DNA of 64,000 nucleotides from the NCBI GenBank assembly GCA_039696685.1, contig CP155566.1, positions 1,736,001 to 1,800,000 of the forward strand, given 5' to 3'. The notes under the pieces were generated by a model. It saw only the letters and a list, made by a program, of their open reading frames with translations, had not been told where the DNA came from and searched no databases. Of the stretch, positions 39,637 to 44,774 are shown in pieces. The position numbers and the translations under genes were made by a program. Numbering within the stretch: the stretch's first letter is position 1; each line of letters begins with the position of its first letter. The DNA comes from Vibrio sp. CDRSL-10 TSBA (GTDB taxonomy: Bacteria; Pseudomonadota; Gammaproteobacteria; Enterobacterales; Vibrionaceae).

Positions 39637-39836
39637 ACATTTGTATGTCCCGCTTTTACTTTCTCGATATCTTAAGCTTGGTGCAAGCGGGCCAGTCCCT
39701 CTTTGTTTGATTCCTCATAAACAAAAAGCGAGGAACCAGAAAAAGGGGTTCTCTTTATTTTCTTTGGCGCTGTCCGGGCCGGTTTTAGGCGTTTCCCTAC
39801 GCCAAAAACCTAAAAATTCGTCCTGAGTTTTTGCCC
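39637..39836 (-). repeat. Dispersed repeat, copy A (inverted relative to copies B and C, diverged)
   Basis: Reverse complement shares with copies B and C the core CGCCTAAAACCGGCC, then ACAGCGCCAAAGAAAA, the start TCAGGACGA-TTTTTAGG and the end GGACATACAA. It lies just outside the first attC site. A predicted 73-aa ORF inside it is repeat sequence, not a gene. Confidence 0.75.
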
Positions 39837-39865
39837 TATGGTTGTGATCTTTTAAGCAATACCAC

Positions 39866-39967: not shown

Positions 39968-40390
39968 TCAAACAATTAATTCCATTTTTATCAAACCATT
40001 AGACTCACCAACACTTTTGAAACCAAATTTTTTATAAAGATTTAATGCCGGATTTTCGCTAAAAACTAGCAGTCTTAGACGACTTAAAGCCTGTGATTTG
40101 GCTCTGTCTAGTGCGTACTTTAAACACTGAACACCAATACCCAATTTTTGGTATTTTGAATCAATTTGAATATCTCTAACATAAAGTGCATTTTCATCAC
40201 TCGAAAATCTCAGAATACCAACCCACTGTCCTTGATATTTAACATCAAAGTTCTCAAATTCTGACCAAATCTGCTCATATCTTTCTGGATCCCAAGTAAT
40301 ATTTCTGGATTTATAATATGGAAGCATATTCACTCTTGTAAGCTCAGCTGCCAAATCCATTGATACCGATTCTACTATCTCAACTTTCAC
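39968..40390 (-). CDS. GNAT family N-acetyltransferase (integron cassette gene)
   Basis: About 140 aa from GTG 40390 (AAGGA upstream). The acetyl-CoA-binding loop reads YQKLGIGVQCLKYAL and the C-terminal NPALNLYKKFGFKSVGE is typical of GNATs. It is AT-rich compared with chromosomal genes nearby. Its stop is followed by a VCR-like attC and its start preceded by another attC, so it is one mobile cassette. Substrate unknown. Confidence 0.78.
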   Translation of the reverse strand: MKVEIVESVSMDLAAELTRVNMLPYYKSRNITWDPERYEQIWSEFENFDVKYQGQWVGILRFSSDENALYVRDIQIDSKYQKLGIGVQCLKYALDRAKSQALSRLRLLVFSENPALNLYKKFGFKSVGESNGLIKMELIV

Positions 40391-40415
40391 GAAATTCCTT
40401 TTTTGACCTGAAAGC

Positions 40416-40476
40416 ACATAACGCCTCAAGAAAGGCACGAGTAGTTTGCGCGTCCTTCTTGTTTGACTGGTTATGA
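40416..40476 (-). other. Integron attC site of the second GNAT cassette
   Basis: Bounded on the minus strand by CATAACC and GCGTTATG, with inverted inner segments ACAAGAAGGAC... and ...GTGCCTTTCTTGAGGC; about 61 bp. The stop codon of the upstream GNAT lies inside it. Confidence 0.75.
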
Positions 40477-40916
40477 GGAAACTTGAAGTGACAAAGAATA
40501 GAAATTTTCATCACGGCCAATCACACGATAACCAAGTGATTTGTAGAATCTCACTGCGGGTTCATTTCTTACAAAGCTTGATAACGTTATACTGCCTCGT
40601 CCTTGCAAACAAGCTTGATGATGAACATAGTTCATTACTTTCTCACCTAGCTTTTGGTTCTGAAATTCTGGAAATACAACAAGCAAATGCACATGAAGAG
40701 CATTGTCATATGGTTTGAAACAAAGCATACCTACACGCTGCCCCTCTTGGTAAATCCAGTTAAACCAATTGGGCTCATAATCGTCCATTAGACGCTTACT
40801 CTGAACATCATCATTCCAGCCAAAAACTGCATCAACATGTGCGTAGATAGCCTGTTTTACAACAGAGAATAAACTATCGAACTCATCTGCTTTGATTTGT
40901 ACTAATTTGATATCCA
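40471..40916 (-). CDS. GNAT family N-acetyltransferase (integron cassette gene)
   Basis: 148 aa from the ATG at 40916 (MDIKLVQIKADEF); the longer frame to 41001 runs back through the preceding attC and is rejected. GNAT core: HVHLLVVFPEFQNQKLGEKVMNYV and NEPAVRFYKSLGYRVIG. It is low in GC. It sits between two attC sites as a single-gene cassette. Not closely related to the adjacent GNAT. Substrate unknown. Confidence 0.78.
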
Positions 40917-40923
40917 TATTCCT

Positions 40924-41021
40924 CATAACGCTGAGCACATTTGCAAAAATACATGGCGCTATATTTTGGGTACCAAAATTAGTGACAGGTATTTTTGTCA
41001 ATTGCTGAGACTTGTTATGTG
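40924..41021 (-). other. Integron attC site of the UDG-like cassette
   Basis: Minus strand starts CATAACAAGTCTCAGCAATTG and ends GCAAATGTGCTCAGCGTTATG; the ends are complementary (TCTCAG/CTCAG) as in attC R and L boxes. About 98 bp. Confidence 0.78.
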
Positions 41022-41024
41022 AAA

Positions 41025-41656
41025 CTATCCATTTACGCCTAATTCATGGAAAATATTAGACCAATATGAAGATCTATATGCTGTTGATGGATGAGTAGTA
41101 CCAATTAACTTAATTTCTCTGTCTTTAAATGGATAGATACAGCAACAATGCTCATGTGTTGAACTAAGATGATATTTACCATACCCAAAATCCGCAGGCA
41201 CTGCATCCCACGCTTTATTTCCCCAACTAATGATAAATTCTGGTTGAAGTTCCTCGATAACTTCCAATAAAGCAGCTTTATGCTTAGATTCTGTATAATC
41301 ATAATACTGGGTTTGTCGTGCATCCTCCCCAGCTGCGACTTGAAGATAGTTATAGAATACTACCGAGTTCCAAAGATCCACTCGAGATTGATCTGAGTTT
41401 TTGCTACCAGCGATAAAACTATTCATAAATGTAGTGAATGTACTTTTCCATCGACCAGAACTATTAAGATCTAAATAGTCGTTTAGCACATTAGTTGTGA
41501 ACTCACCATATTGCTGTTTTTTTCATCAGACCCACAGCTATTGCAATATTCCGTACAATAATGAGAATCACCAAGAATAAGGATTTTGTATCGGAAAAGT
41601 GAATTTTCATTGCCATATTGATTCCCCACCCATGGTCTAAAAAATACATTTTCCAT
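41025..41656 (-). CDS. Uracil-DNA-glycosylase-like hypothetical protein (integron cassette gene, frameshifted as written)
   Basis: ATG 41656 follows AAGGAG. The N-terminal part MENVFFRPWVGNQYGNENSL leads to YKILILGDSHYCTEYC, then the frame is lost in a run of seven A (41517-41523 on the plus strand); eight A would join it to QQYGEFTTNVLNDYLDL and the remainder, about 210 aa. ILGDSHY near the N-terminus and IGTTHPSTAYRSSYW near the C-terminus recall motifs of the UDG fold (GDS-x-Y and HPS). Enzymatic activity is unproven. Either homopolymer miscount or a real frameshift is possible. Confidence 0.6.
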
Positions 41657-41693
41657 CAAAAATTTCTCCTTAATTGAAAATTAGTCAGTCTCA

Positions 41694-41799
41694 CATAACG
41701 CTGCAAACAGTGGCGCTTTCACCAATGTCACAACAGATTTAAAACTTTAATCAACAAGTGACCACGCGTTAAGCGTCCATTGATTTGCTTTGTTAGCTG
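41694..41799 (-). other. Integron attC site of the transglycosylase cassette, overlapping its coding end
   Basis: Minus strand starts GCTAACAAAGCAAATCAATGG and ends CACTGTTTGCAGCGTTATG, with complementary ends (AACAAAGC... / ...GTTTGCAGCGTT). About 106 bp. The transglycosylase stop (41747-41749) is in the middle of the site. Confidence 0.75.
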
Positions 41800-42400
41800 T
41801 TTGTTCACGAGTGCTAGGATGTGCTCCTTTCTTTTCTGATATTTTGTTAACCACAAAAATGTATGTACTGATGGTTTCTGGATACTTTAAACGAATTGCG
41901 AGTTCTACAGAAAGAGTCTCGCTATCACGCCAGACGTCTAAACCCAAATGTTTAGCTAACTGAAAAATTCCTCTGATATTACCTCCCAAATATGCAGTTT
42001 GAATATATGCTGATGTTATTTGGTTCTTATCAAATTCTCTTGAAATTAATATAGCTAATAGTTGCTCTGACAACTTTCTTTTTAGCGTCAAATCGTAGCG
42101 TCCTGTAATAGTCCTAACCAATTGCTGCTCGATAGTGCTAGCACCTTGTTTGGTTCCTTTGATCAAATAGACATACAAAACTCGAAAGAAAGATAGTTGA
42201 TCAACACCGAAATGAACATTACTGCGGTGGTCTTCTGACAGTTGCAAATAATCCTTATATTCTGCCGGAAAGTGATGTTCTAGATCTATTATTTTATTCG
42301 TTACTTCTCGCTTTAAACACCTGAACTTAGGACTAAAAACATAAAGTAAACAAGAAGCTAACATATAAGGTAAGGACAAAAGTAAGTATAATAACTTCAA
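41747..42400 (-). CDS. Membrane-anchored GT51 peptidoglycan transglycosylase-like protein (integron cassette gene)
   Basis: 217 aa. One N-terminal membrane segment (residues 3-22) precedes a glycosyltransferase-51 domain with readable motifs: SEDHRSNVHFGVD (equivalent of ED-x2-F-x2-H-x-G-x-D with catalytic Glu), GASTIEQQLVRTITG, LKRKLSEQLLAILISREF and AYIQTAYLGGNIRG. It resembles monofunctional transglycosylases such as MtgA but lies in an integron cassette and is AT-rich. It starts at TTG 42400, overlapping by two bases the corrected stop of the preceding gene (TTGA). The last 18 or so codons are part of the attC site. Confidence 0.75.
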   Translation of the reverse strand: MKLLYLLLSLPYMLASCLLYVFSPKFRCLKREVTNKIIDLEHHFPAEYKDYLQLSEDHRSNVHFGVDQLSFFRVLYVYLIKGTKQGASTIEQQLVRTITGRYDLTLKRKLSEQLLAILISREFDKNQITSAYIQTAYLGGNIRGIFQLAKHLGLDVWRDSETLSVELAIRLKYPETISTYIFVVNKISEKKGAHPSTREQTANKANQWTLNAWSLVD

Positions 42401-42889
42401 ATTTTTTCCCTACACCAAGTTGTATATCCATCTTGATCGGCAACCATTGTAGAAAATACTCCTTCAAGTGTACGTGTTTCGTTGTGAACTGTAAGTTTCG
42501 TATGAGTATGTAGACTCACGGCCGAATCCATCTTCTACTACATGCAAAATGATTTTGTCCTTTGAGAAATAATTTTTCTGGATATAGCCATCAACAACAC
42601 CACGACACCTATTAGTACCAATAAAGTTCCGCGCCCCGTTAACTGAGTCTTCATAAACTTTTTCAGTAGTGCCCGAAACCTTGTTTCCTTCACACCATAA
42701 AATAGCGGTATAGCCTAATGTCATTCCTTTATATGGATTATATGCACTATTCTCTGTAATGTTTTTTAGGTGCCACATACCGTTAATGTTAGGTAAAGGA
42801 AAACACTTCTCCCTTATCAAAAAAAATAAAAATGTTAGAATACAGCCACCAATAACGGTTGCTAATACATCTCCGAACACATTTTCCAT
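42397..42889 (-). CDS. Membrane-anchored beta-rich hypothetical protein (cassette gene, one frameshift in this sequence)
   Basis: As written it stops at 42464. Removing one base of TTT 42477-42479 (a GAAAC context) replaces the tail with RTRTLEGVFSTMVADQDGYT and TWCREKI, ending at TGA 42397-42399, about 163 aa. A single membrane segment (residues about 8-25) is followed by a soluble domain that looks beta-rich: NINGMWHLKN, then GYTAILWCEGNKVSGTTEKV. The pattern is reminiscent of the lipocalin-like membrane effectors of some CBASS systems (Cap15-like), but the match is by eye only. It is coupled to the GT51 gene. Confidence 0.6.
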
Positions 42890-42959: not shown

Positions 42960-43214
42960 ATACGGTACCGAACTCATCAAAATCAACGTAACTCACTGAT
43001 TATAATTGACATAAGCTAACGTTAGACATGCAGATCATTGACACTCGAATTCACAAAATACCGACAGATTCTATCTAACACACCATAGTAAACTGAATAC
43101 ATAATCAACTATTCGTCAGACCAAATCAACAAACACCAAAAGAAACGAGTCAACATTGTTAATCGCATTAAGTTTTTAAGCAAAAACTTACCAATAACGC
43201 TCTGAAACCACTGT
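42960..43214. other. AT-rich spacer without genes
   Basis: No ORF of note. It contains GTCTAAC/GTTAGC-like short inverted repeats (near 43017-43027) that may be decayed cassette junctions. Confidence 0.35.
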
Positions 43215-43398
43215 CCGAAGGCAAAAAATCAGGACGATTTTTTAGGTTTTCGGCGTCGGGAAACGCCTAAAACCGGCCTGCACAGCGCCAAAGAAAACAA
43301 GCGCCTTTCTGGTTACTCTTTGGCGCAAGCAAAGAGTGACTGGCACGCTGGCACTCAGCTAAAAGAAATCACCTAAGTCAGAGCGTGACATACAACAC
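43215..43398 (+). repeat. Dispersed 184-bp repeat, copy B
   Basis: Runs from CCGAAGGCAAAAAATCAGG to GAGCGTGACATACAACAC and is nearly identical to copy C (44411-44594). It contains its own inverted repeat AGGCGTTT/AAACGCCT-like stems and no plausible protein. Confidence 0.85.
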
Positions 43399-43404
43399 CG
43401 CAAA

Positions 43405-44261: not shown

Positions 44262-44774
44262 TACAACTCAATAGGTCTTAAACACCATACCAAACCAGGC
44301 ACATATTTTACTATCAATTTATGGATAATAATCAAACTAAGGAGCTGATTTAGAAAGACAAATGGAAGCATACAAAACAAAAGCGAGCAAACAGCTTGGG
44401 AAGCCCTGACCCGAAGGCAAAAAATCAGGACGATTTTTTAGGTTTTCGGCGTCGGGAACGCCTAAAACCGGCCTGCACAACGCCAAAGAAACCCAAGCGC
44501 CTTTCTGGTCACTCTTTGGCGCAAGCAAAGAGTGACTGGTACGCTGGCACTCAGCTAAAAGAAATCGACCAAATCAGAGCGTGACATACAACACAACGAA
44601 ATCGTTTTAAATCCCACAACAAGCTCATTTGCACCAACACCAAAAAAACCACCAAAAGCCAGAGAGTGACATACAAACGACTAAAGCGAGGACTTAAACA
44701 ACCACACCCAAAACATTGTGATAACCCAATCATGAAGATAAAATCCCCACGCCTTCCCCCAAGAGAAACCCAAC
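44262..44774. other. 513-bp intergenic region holding repeat copy C
   Basis: Besides repeat copy C (44411-44594) it holds two further short echoes of the repeat end (GTGACATACAA near 44666). No gene is convincing; short ORFs there read through the repeat. Confidence 0.5.
44411..44594 (+). repeat. Dispersed 184-bp repeat, copy C
   Basis: Direct-oriented near-copy of the repeat at 43215. One difference is GGGAACG here against GGGAAACG in copies A and B, the same kind of one-base difference that causes the frameshifts elsewhere in the window. Confidence 0.85.

Follow-up and report, generated by a model that had tools for sequence, protein, structure and literature searches.

Cap15-type membrane barrels kill through membrane damage. 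Cap15 itself, a CBASS effector of the S-2TM-beta class, has two membrane helices followed by a C-terminal 8-strand beta-barrel, and its partner is a CD-NTase. In the available text of PMC12657218, S-2TM-beta proteins are defined by a two-pass membrane element fused to a barrel, and the accessible parts of that paper and of PMC12657230 describe Panoptes as a system of two genes, which encode OptS, an mCpol protein, and OptE, an S-2TM-beta protein. The same portions of the two papers state that Cap15 is activated, and OptE released, upon a change in the bound nucleotide, and that OptE is toxic alone.

The monofunctional glycosyltransferases MtgA and S. aureus MGT contain a whole GT51 catalytic domain with both catalytic-glutamate motifs. 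A motif of the STI[T/S]QQ type lines the GT51 active cleft. Lpo-type activators stimulate penicillin-binding proteins (PBPs), and wall-side activators work from the periplasm.

Here we describe two overlapping genes from Vibrio sp. CDRSL-10 TSBA, located in a stretch of 64,000 nucleotides that was analysed as a whole (the window). The first gene, M, encodes a predicted membrane-barrel protein and the second a stand-alone GT51 enzyme. Like Panoptes, as far as the available descriptions of that system go, M-GT51 is a two-gene system with a membrane-barrel protein, but the partner is a peptidoglycan polymerase in place of a nucleotide synthase (or of the CD-NTase of Cap15). M is predicted to end in an 8-strand barrel, as Cap15 does, but has one membrane helix where Cap15 has two. 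The paired GT51 has the whole catalytic domain and both catalytic-glutamate motifs, as do MtgA and MGT; unlike the monofunctional enzymes, it was always accompanied in our survey by M or another small partner, and it differs from MtgA in scoring far below the equivalog cut-off and in carrying STI[E/D]QQ for STI[T/S]QQ. The parts are thus of known kinds, and the combination is new as far as the literature searches reach. It had also been novel to the reader who made the original prediction from the DNA sequence, and we found no description of the M-GT51 pair in the open-licence literature. The words 'transglycosylase', 'peptidoglycan', 'Cap15' and 'glycosyltransferase' are absent from the main texts of DefensePredictor (PMC13092281) and of the E. 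coli pangenome selection (PMC9519451).

Results

Both genes of the pair change frame in the window

The two genes occupy the following positions:

42464..42889, minus strand: gene M, first frame; 141 aa, with the N-terminal membrane helix and most of the predicted 8-strand beta-barrel
42403..42504 (G000:C2:1778403-1778504), minus strand: remainder of gene M, second frame; last barrel strands (profile 132-164, E 2.6e-5)
41747..42400, minus strand: gene GT51; 217 aa, TTG start, stand-alone peptidoglycan glycosyltransferase with the STIEQQ signature
41773..41874, minus strand: C-terminal stretch of GT51, second frame; profile 176-209 (coordinates converted from L041)

The M family profile matched window M in two frames (42479-42889, profile 4-140, and 42403-42504, profile 132-164), and the profile search places the frame change within about 42479-42504. 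The original prediction had assigned a frameshift to a GAAAC site at 42477. M does change frame, but 42477 lies just outside the profile interval. The 163-aa protein expected after correction agrees with the eleven closest homologues (P0001-P0011), which span 161-169 aa, and the predicted overlap of the M stop with the GT51 start was seen by eye as TTGA, in which the TGA of the second M frame overlaps the TTG of GT51. GT51 was likewise said rightly to have all its motifs, as PF00912 matched at E 1.7e-23 (83.4 bits against a gathering score of 27) and both GASTIEQQ and the two catalytic-glutamate motifs are present. A point that had been missed is a frame break near the 3' end of GT51: comparison with relatives, together with the second-frame profile match, shows that the window copy leaves the relatives' frame for the last ~35 residues.

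The rpoB gene of the same genome (G000:C2:245345-249338) is split over two frames, as is each of the two best XerD-family genes (G000:C2:2888470-2889340 and G000:C2:3294514-3295375). Therefore, the assembly carries indel errors and the window frameshifts are to be read with caution; because these other genes are split too, the breaks in M and GT51 are probably sequencing or assembly errors rather than decay of the cassette. Neither window gene was mended, and the later analyses of M and GT51 were carried out on intact relatives. Overall, the earlier interpretation of the locus is partly supported by the results given here and below.

M and GT51 are conserved as a pair

A scan with the M family over 84,980 species genomes yielded 30 loci, and the true number is higher because the search patterns limit sensitivity. 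A small GT51 ORF lies directly downstream on the same strand in 24 of them. In the reverse direction, the GT51 family was used to search IMG/VR and gave 7 loci, all 7 with M directly upstream, which represent about 4 distinct viral-contig loci because three pairs look like the same sequence. The neighbourhood survey proposed earlier thus revealed conserved pairing from both genes, and chance neighbours are ruled out by these counts. When the first possible start was taken mechanically, M and GT51 overlapped by 22 nt in 15 of the 24 pairs and by 4 nt in 7; in L030 and L032 the first possible start is further upstream. According to the record titles, the hosts comprise many Gammaproteobacteria as well as Desulfuromusa, Geomonas and a Fibrobacteres MAG, the last three with the standard pair.

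The arrangement varies at some loci. M is followed in L018 and L021 by a full class A PBP-like protein (GT51 plus transpeptidase, 556 aa; Pfam scan on L018) and then by a protein of 243-247 aa. This three-gene variant occupies L018:7950-11066 and L021:7977-11065, and its last protein has membrane segments (by eye, L018). L025 has, ahead of M, a gene for a PBP-type protein and another that is nucleotidyltransferase-like, and M faces a nucleotidyltransferase-like gene and GT51 in L035. L036 gave only a fragmentary GT51 match (E 1.6e-4); in L040, M is a weak fragment and GT51 was not found there.

Flanks were compared at the DNA level among 22 of the 24 loci. Of the 231 locus pairs, 5 showed similarity at 1e-10, and only one of them, from two Rheinheimera, showed it at length. 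For seven locus pairs, dN/dS ranged over 0.06-0.16 in M and 0.14-0.35 in GT51, values that are rough inasmuch as several dS values were high. Purifying selection acts on both genes and is the stronger on M. Given this selection, and flanks that vary from host to host, the module is held by selection in unrelated hosts; its conservation does not reflect recent common descent of one region.

The pair occurs on prophages, a plasmid and viral contigs

The plasmid search identified the pair on one conjugative E. coli plasmid (one record), with M at 32% identity. Among 5,426 complete E. coli genomes, five have the pair, two of these records being of the same length and probably one strain; on the chromosomes that were inspected, it is prophage cargo in all three cases. 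Two lambdoid E. coli prophages carry it between antiterminator and holin, just before the lysis genes, and viral contig L054 has the same arrangement (by eye). The P2-like prophage L045 carries it between tail-fibre assembly and tail-sheath genes, which is presumably the Z/fun accessory site of P2. The L045 copy is therefore not at the published E. coli P2 hotspot, which the available text of PMC9122126 places near cos, between the gpA and gpQ genes. The E. coli plasmid (L043:7790-9421) and the P2-like prophage (L045:9868-11499) both have WP_047668714 and WP_029397133 upstream of M, and the two hypothetical proteins common to them indicate that a larger block has moved.

M's own patterns gave 22 candidate stretches in IMG/VR, none of which was confirmed. 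Because the GT51 patterns did find M-GT51 pairs in IMG/VR, it is clear that the M scan misses the E. coli-type branch of ~32% identity. M had no match in the annotated phage collection, and in the class-wide sample it was present in 1 of 369 genomes, the window's own. We conclude that the pair is a mobile two-gene module found on prophages and a plasmid, and probably in integrons.

A probable cassette array at the window locus

The surroundings of the pair contain the following features:

41694..41773, minus strand: probable attC closing the two-gene cassette; CTTAAC ... GCGTTATG, folding z -1.9, recognised by the common GCGTTATG end
40924..41019, minus strand: probable attC of the next cassette; CATAAC ... 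GCGTTATG, a strong stem with z -7.6
40417..40475, minus strand: probable attC of the following cassette; CATAAC ... GCGTTATG, z -1.2
41025..41489, minus strand: neighbouring cassette gene, outside the module; 154 aa, weak match to the uracil-DNA-glycosylase superfamily (PF03167, E 0.0065, below cut-off)
40471-41001, minus strand: GNAT acetyltransferase cassette gene (Pfam), outside the module
39968-40438, minus strand: GNAT acetyltransferase cassette gene (Pfam), outside the module

M, GT51, the uracil-DNA-glycosylase-like gene and the two GNAT genes are on the same strand and have ~37-38% G+C, against ~50% around them. The two-motif attC search produced five further minus-strand matches elsewhere in the window, none ending in GCGTTATG. 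Since the three sites, of which one folds strongly and two weakly, share an end that the other window matches lack, we consider it probable that they mark a short cassette array in which M and GT51 occupy one attC-ended cassette, and the two-gene cassette of the original prediction is upheld to that extent. Rfam gave no match, and a search with the strict class-1 attC consensus gave no match. No integron integrase scored over the cut-off in the window's genome, where the two best-scoring places were the split xer genes; this absence is not decisive because a broken integrase in an indel-rich assembly would score low.

Integrons were also considered as the general vehicle of the pair. That proposal was rejected, as attC-like sites lie beside the pair only at L019 (GT51 end), L015 and L026; a site in L017 is more terminator-like. 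An integrase over the cut-off was present somewhere in the genome in 8 of the 15 host genomes searched (from 16 handles for the 30 loci, minus L026).

The 154-aa uracil-DNA-glycosylase-like ORF starts late; by eye, a different frame is open upstream of it (41489-41700) and has a likely ATG start, so this cassette gene may be broken too.

M is a single-helix protein with a predicted beta-barrel

Window M matched no Pfam, NCBIfam or PADLOC family (PADLOC at E <= 1), and no PADLOC model matched the intact relative P0002 or the E. coli plasmid M either. The closest homologue from a named organism is in Photobacterium swingsii. A single N-terminal hydrophobic segment was detected in all 29 M members (Kyte-Doolittle window), and the predicted structure of P0002 consists of one helix and an 8-strand beta-barrel; judged by sequence, the barrel side appears to be cytosolic.

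M had been proposed to be a single-pass membrane protein with a possible lipocalin-like domain, Cap15-like by eye, to be examined by structure prediction and a structural search. The single helix and a C-terminal 8-strand barrel like that of Cap15 were borne out by the prediction. PF18153 (Cap15_CD_rec) matched none of the 29 members at E <= 1, no second helix is present, and the Cap15-like barrel was no better as a fold match than streptavidin and designed barrels, with which it tied. An hhalign comparison of M with five Cap15-family proteins gave a probability of 32% (E 4.9e-4, 58 columns), and a PDB sequence search with M returned just WNK2 at E 1.7. The few Pfam matches within the family looked spurious (e.g., Epiglycanin_C in 3 of 29), and M was rejected as a Pfam-recognised family.

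CBASS and Panoptes place a nucleotide cyclase beside the barrel protein. Among the ORFs seen in the 24 standard loci, no nucleotide cyclase lies beside the pair; GT51 is the partner at 24 of the 30 loci, and two of the 30 (L025 and L035) have a nucleotidyltransferase-like gene near M.

The paired GT51 has an altered cleft motif

The GT51 family profile A2 matched, in the PDB, 2oqo (E 3.3e-28), which we take to be the GT51 domain of PBP1A from Aquifex, and the monofunctional glycosyltransferase 3vmq (E 1.1e-23). The window GT51 matched no PADLOC family at E <= 1, and its score against the MtgA equivalog TIGR02070, obtained with its C-terminal ~35 residues out of frame, was 27.5 bits against a cut-off of 182.65. 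The GxSTIxQQ site was found in 30 of 31 paired loci, the variable residue being E in 25, D in 4 and A in 1; a search for this site and the catalytic-glutamate motif found no site in L019. The control GT51 loci had the site in 14 of 18, with T in 9 and S in 5. STI[E/D]QQ is therefore present in 29 of 30 paired GT51s, a set that includes near-identical copies, versus 0 of 14 controls, all of which have STI[T/S]QQ. The catalytic-glutamate motifs EDxR...H.G.D and RKxxE are present in the window copy and in 30 of the 31 paired loci. Because both of these motifs are kept, the paired GT51 is probably enzymatically active, with an extra acidic residue at the cleft motif.

Lysine and arginine residues were counted on either side of the N-terminal hydrophobic stretch of GT51. 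Of 26 paired proteins (L017 was scored on the wrong stretch), 14 have more after than before, 8 more before than after, and 4 equal numbers; the corresponding counts for eight MtgA controls are 1, 6 and 1. The membrane topology of GT51 thus appears ambiguous. GT51 homologues numbered 575, and PF00912 was present in 120 of 120 among the matches listed.

Neighbouring genes and a second GT51 module

PADLOC was run on 129 of the 136 flanking ORFs (left out were L024:3-275, two L025 ORFs, L030:4900-5184, L034:108-389, L035:9254-9853 and L037:2043-4418). At 1e-8, 78 families matched, none of them more than two ORFs, and the flank matches listed (25 of the 78) include NERD+UvrD, a type I methyltransferase, DpdF, and MADS 2 and 3. 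When ten large flanking proteins were searched against PADLOC singly, two matched (L035 and L021), both to NERD+UvrD; the helicase gene is directly before M in these two loci.

A second GT51 module was observed, in which GT51 lies beside a nucleotidyltransferase-like protein of ~220-240 aa (L044:4866-6120, L059:4409-5657 and L035:8525-9853; L025:646-2815 has a PBP-type protein). These pairs resemble M-GT51 in having a small accessory gene beside a stand-alone GT51, and the L025 and L035 loci contain M too. The nucleotidyltransferase-like protein has 241 homologues, including some in Klebsiella quasipneumoniae, Serratia, Brenneria, Arcobacteraceae and Sulfurovum.

Discussion

The results suggest that the pair may be an undescribed mobile system that defends against phages. 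The explanation that we favour, as plausible if somewhat short of probable, is a mobile module in which an infection-sensing M gates GT51 as a competition or defence system. M would be anchored in the inner membrane, and its barrel would face the cytoplasm and there sense an infection signal, perhaps, by analogy with Cap15 and OptE, the gain or loss of a nucleotide. A change in the bound nucleotide activates Cap15 and releases OptE, according to the available text on those proteins, which sets a precedent for such gating. The change would be relayed through the single helix of M to the co-translated GT51, which would normally be held idle and, once released, would build uncrosslinked glycan from lipid II out of turn. 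Lipid II and the undecaprenyl pool would be drained, and either growth would stop or the infected cell would lyse before phage release. Counted against this explanation are, from the predicted structure and family searches, the failure of PF18153 to match any of the 29 members, the missing second helix and the fold match tied with streptavidin, and, from the gene neighbourhoods and protein sequences, no neighbouring cyclase, no PADLOC model, few defence-like neighbours and an apparently ambiguous GT51 topology.

The main rival is a role in wall protection or lysis timing, in which M activates GT51 in the manner of the Lpo proteins and the extra peptidoglycan counters entry lysins, the endolysin, envelope stress or superinfecting phages, with no killing involved. 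We hold this to be possible but rather unlikely. It would fit a GT51 that looks active from its motifs, the two E. coli prophages (and, by eye, L054) in which the pair precedes the lysis genes, and the association of M in L018 and L021 with a full PBP (GT51 plus transpeptidase), a maker of crosslinked wall; it accords poorly with an M barrel that appears cytosolic when wall-side activators work from the periplasm, and with the P2-like copy lying between tail genes and the remaining loci not being near lysis genes. An addiction module of the toxin-antitoxin type ranks third. One partner, either unscheduled GT51 or membrane-active M, would be toxic and the other would restrain it, which would stabilise cassettes, plasmids and prophages. 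Small size, overlapping genes and carriage on plasmids, prophages and a probable integron array are typical of addiction modules, and the S-2TM-beta relative OptE is toxic alone (PMC12657218 and PMC12657230, available portions), but purifying selection acts on both partners, on M more than on GT51, a regulator domain was not found, and the function overlaps with that of the gated GT51; we regard addiction as unlikely.

It is also conceivable that GT51 is an ordinary accessory wall synthase and M a companion without a special role, the benefit being in fitness or antibiotic tolerance. The abundance of GT51 homologues (575, with PF00912 in all 120 among those listed) is as expected from this explanation, but a clade whose STI[E/D]QQ motif goes with M (29 of 30 paired GT51s, 0 of 14 controls) and an overlap fixed at 4 or 22 nt are not, and it seems to us improbable. 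The finding that both window genes are broken could be taken to mean that they are chance neighbours or an artefact of a poor assembly; intact pairs at 24 of 30 other loci refute this, and we assign it next to no likelihood.

Whichever role is correct, a barrel predicted to have the Cap15 fold is tied through an overlapping operon, in several phyla, to a lipid II polymerase. If the gated-GT51 module is a defence system, a wall-building enzyme would serve as effector, a single-helix barrel would be shown to work with a separate effector, and there would be a new handle on stopping cells at lipid II. The intact copies in E. coli prophages, such as L046 of FDAARGOS_1277, make the idea directly testable in laboratory strains. 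One could envision, more speculatively and with considerable doubt, that wall synthesis itself is an immune effector: a Cap15-like single-helix barrel would sense infection and switch on the altered STI[E/D]QQ GT51, which would use up lipid II out of turn, possibly on the cytoplasmic face, so that wall-making would cease or the infected cell would lyse early, and a GT51 core that pairs with the barrel, with the nucleotidyltransferase-like partner or with both would define a family of envelope-targeting defence modules.

A minor observation concerns the DNA around the array. Similar intergenic blocks of the form GGTTTTAGGCGTT..CCGACGCCGAAAACC..AAAAA..TCGTCCTGATTTTTTGCC recur in the window at 43200-43400, 44340-44530 and 39750-39840, and are seemingly repeated non-coding elements.
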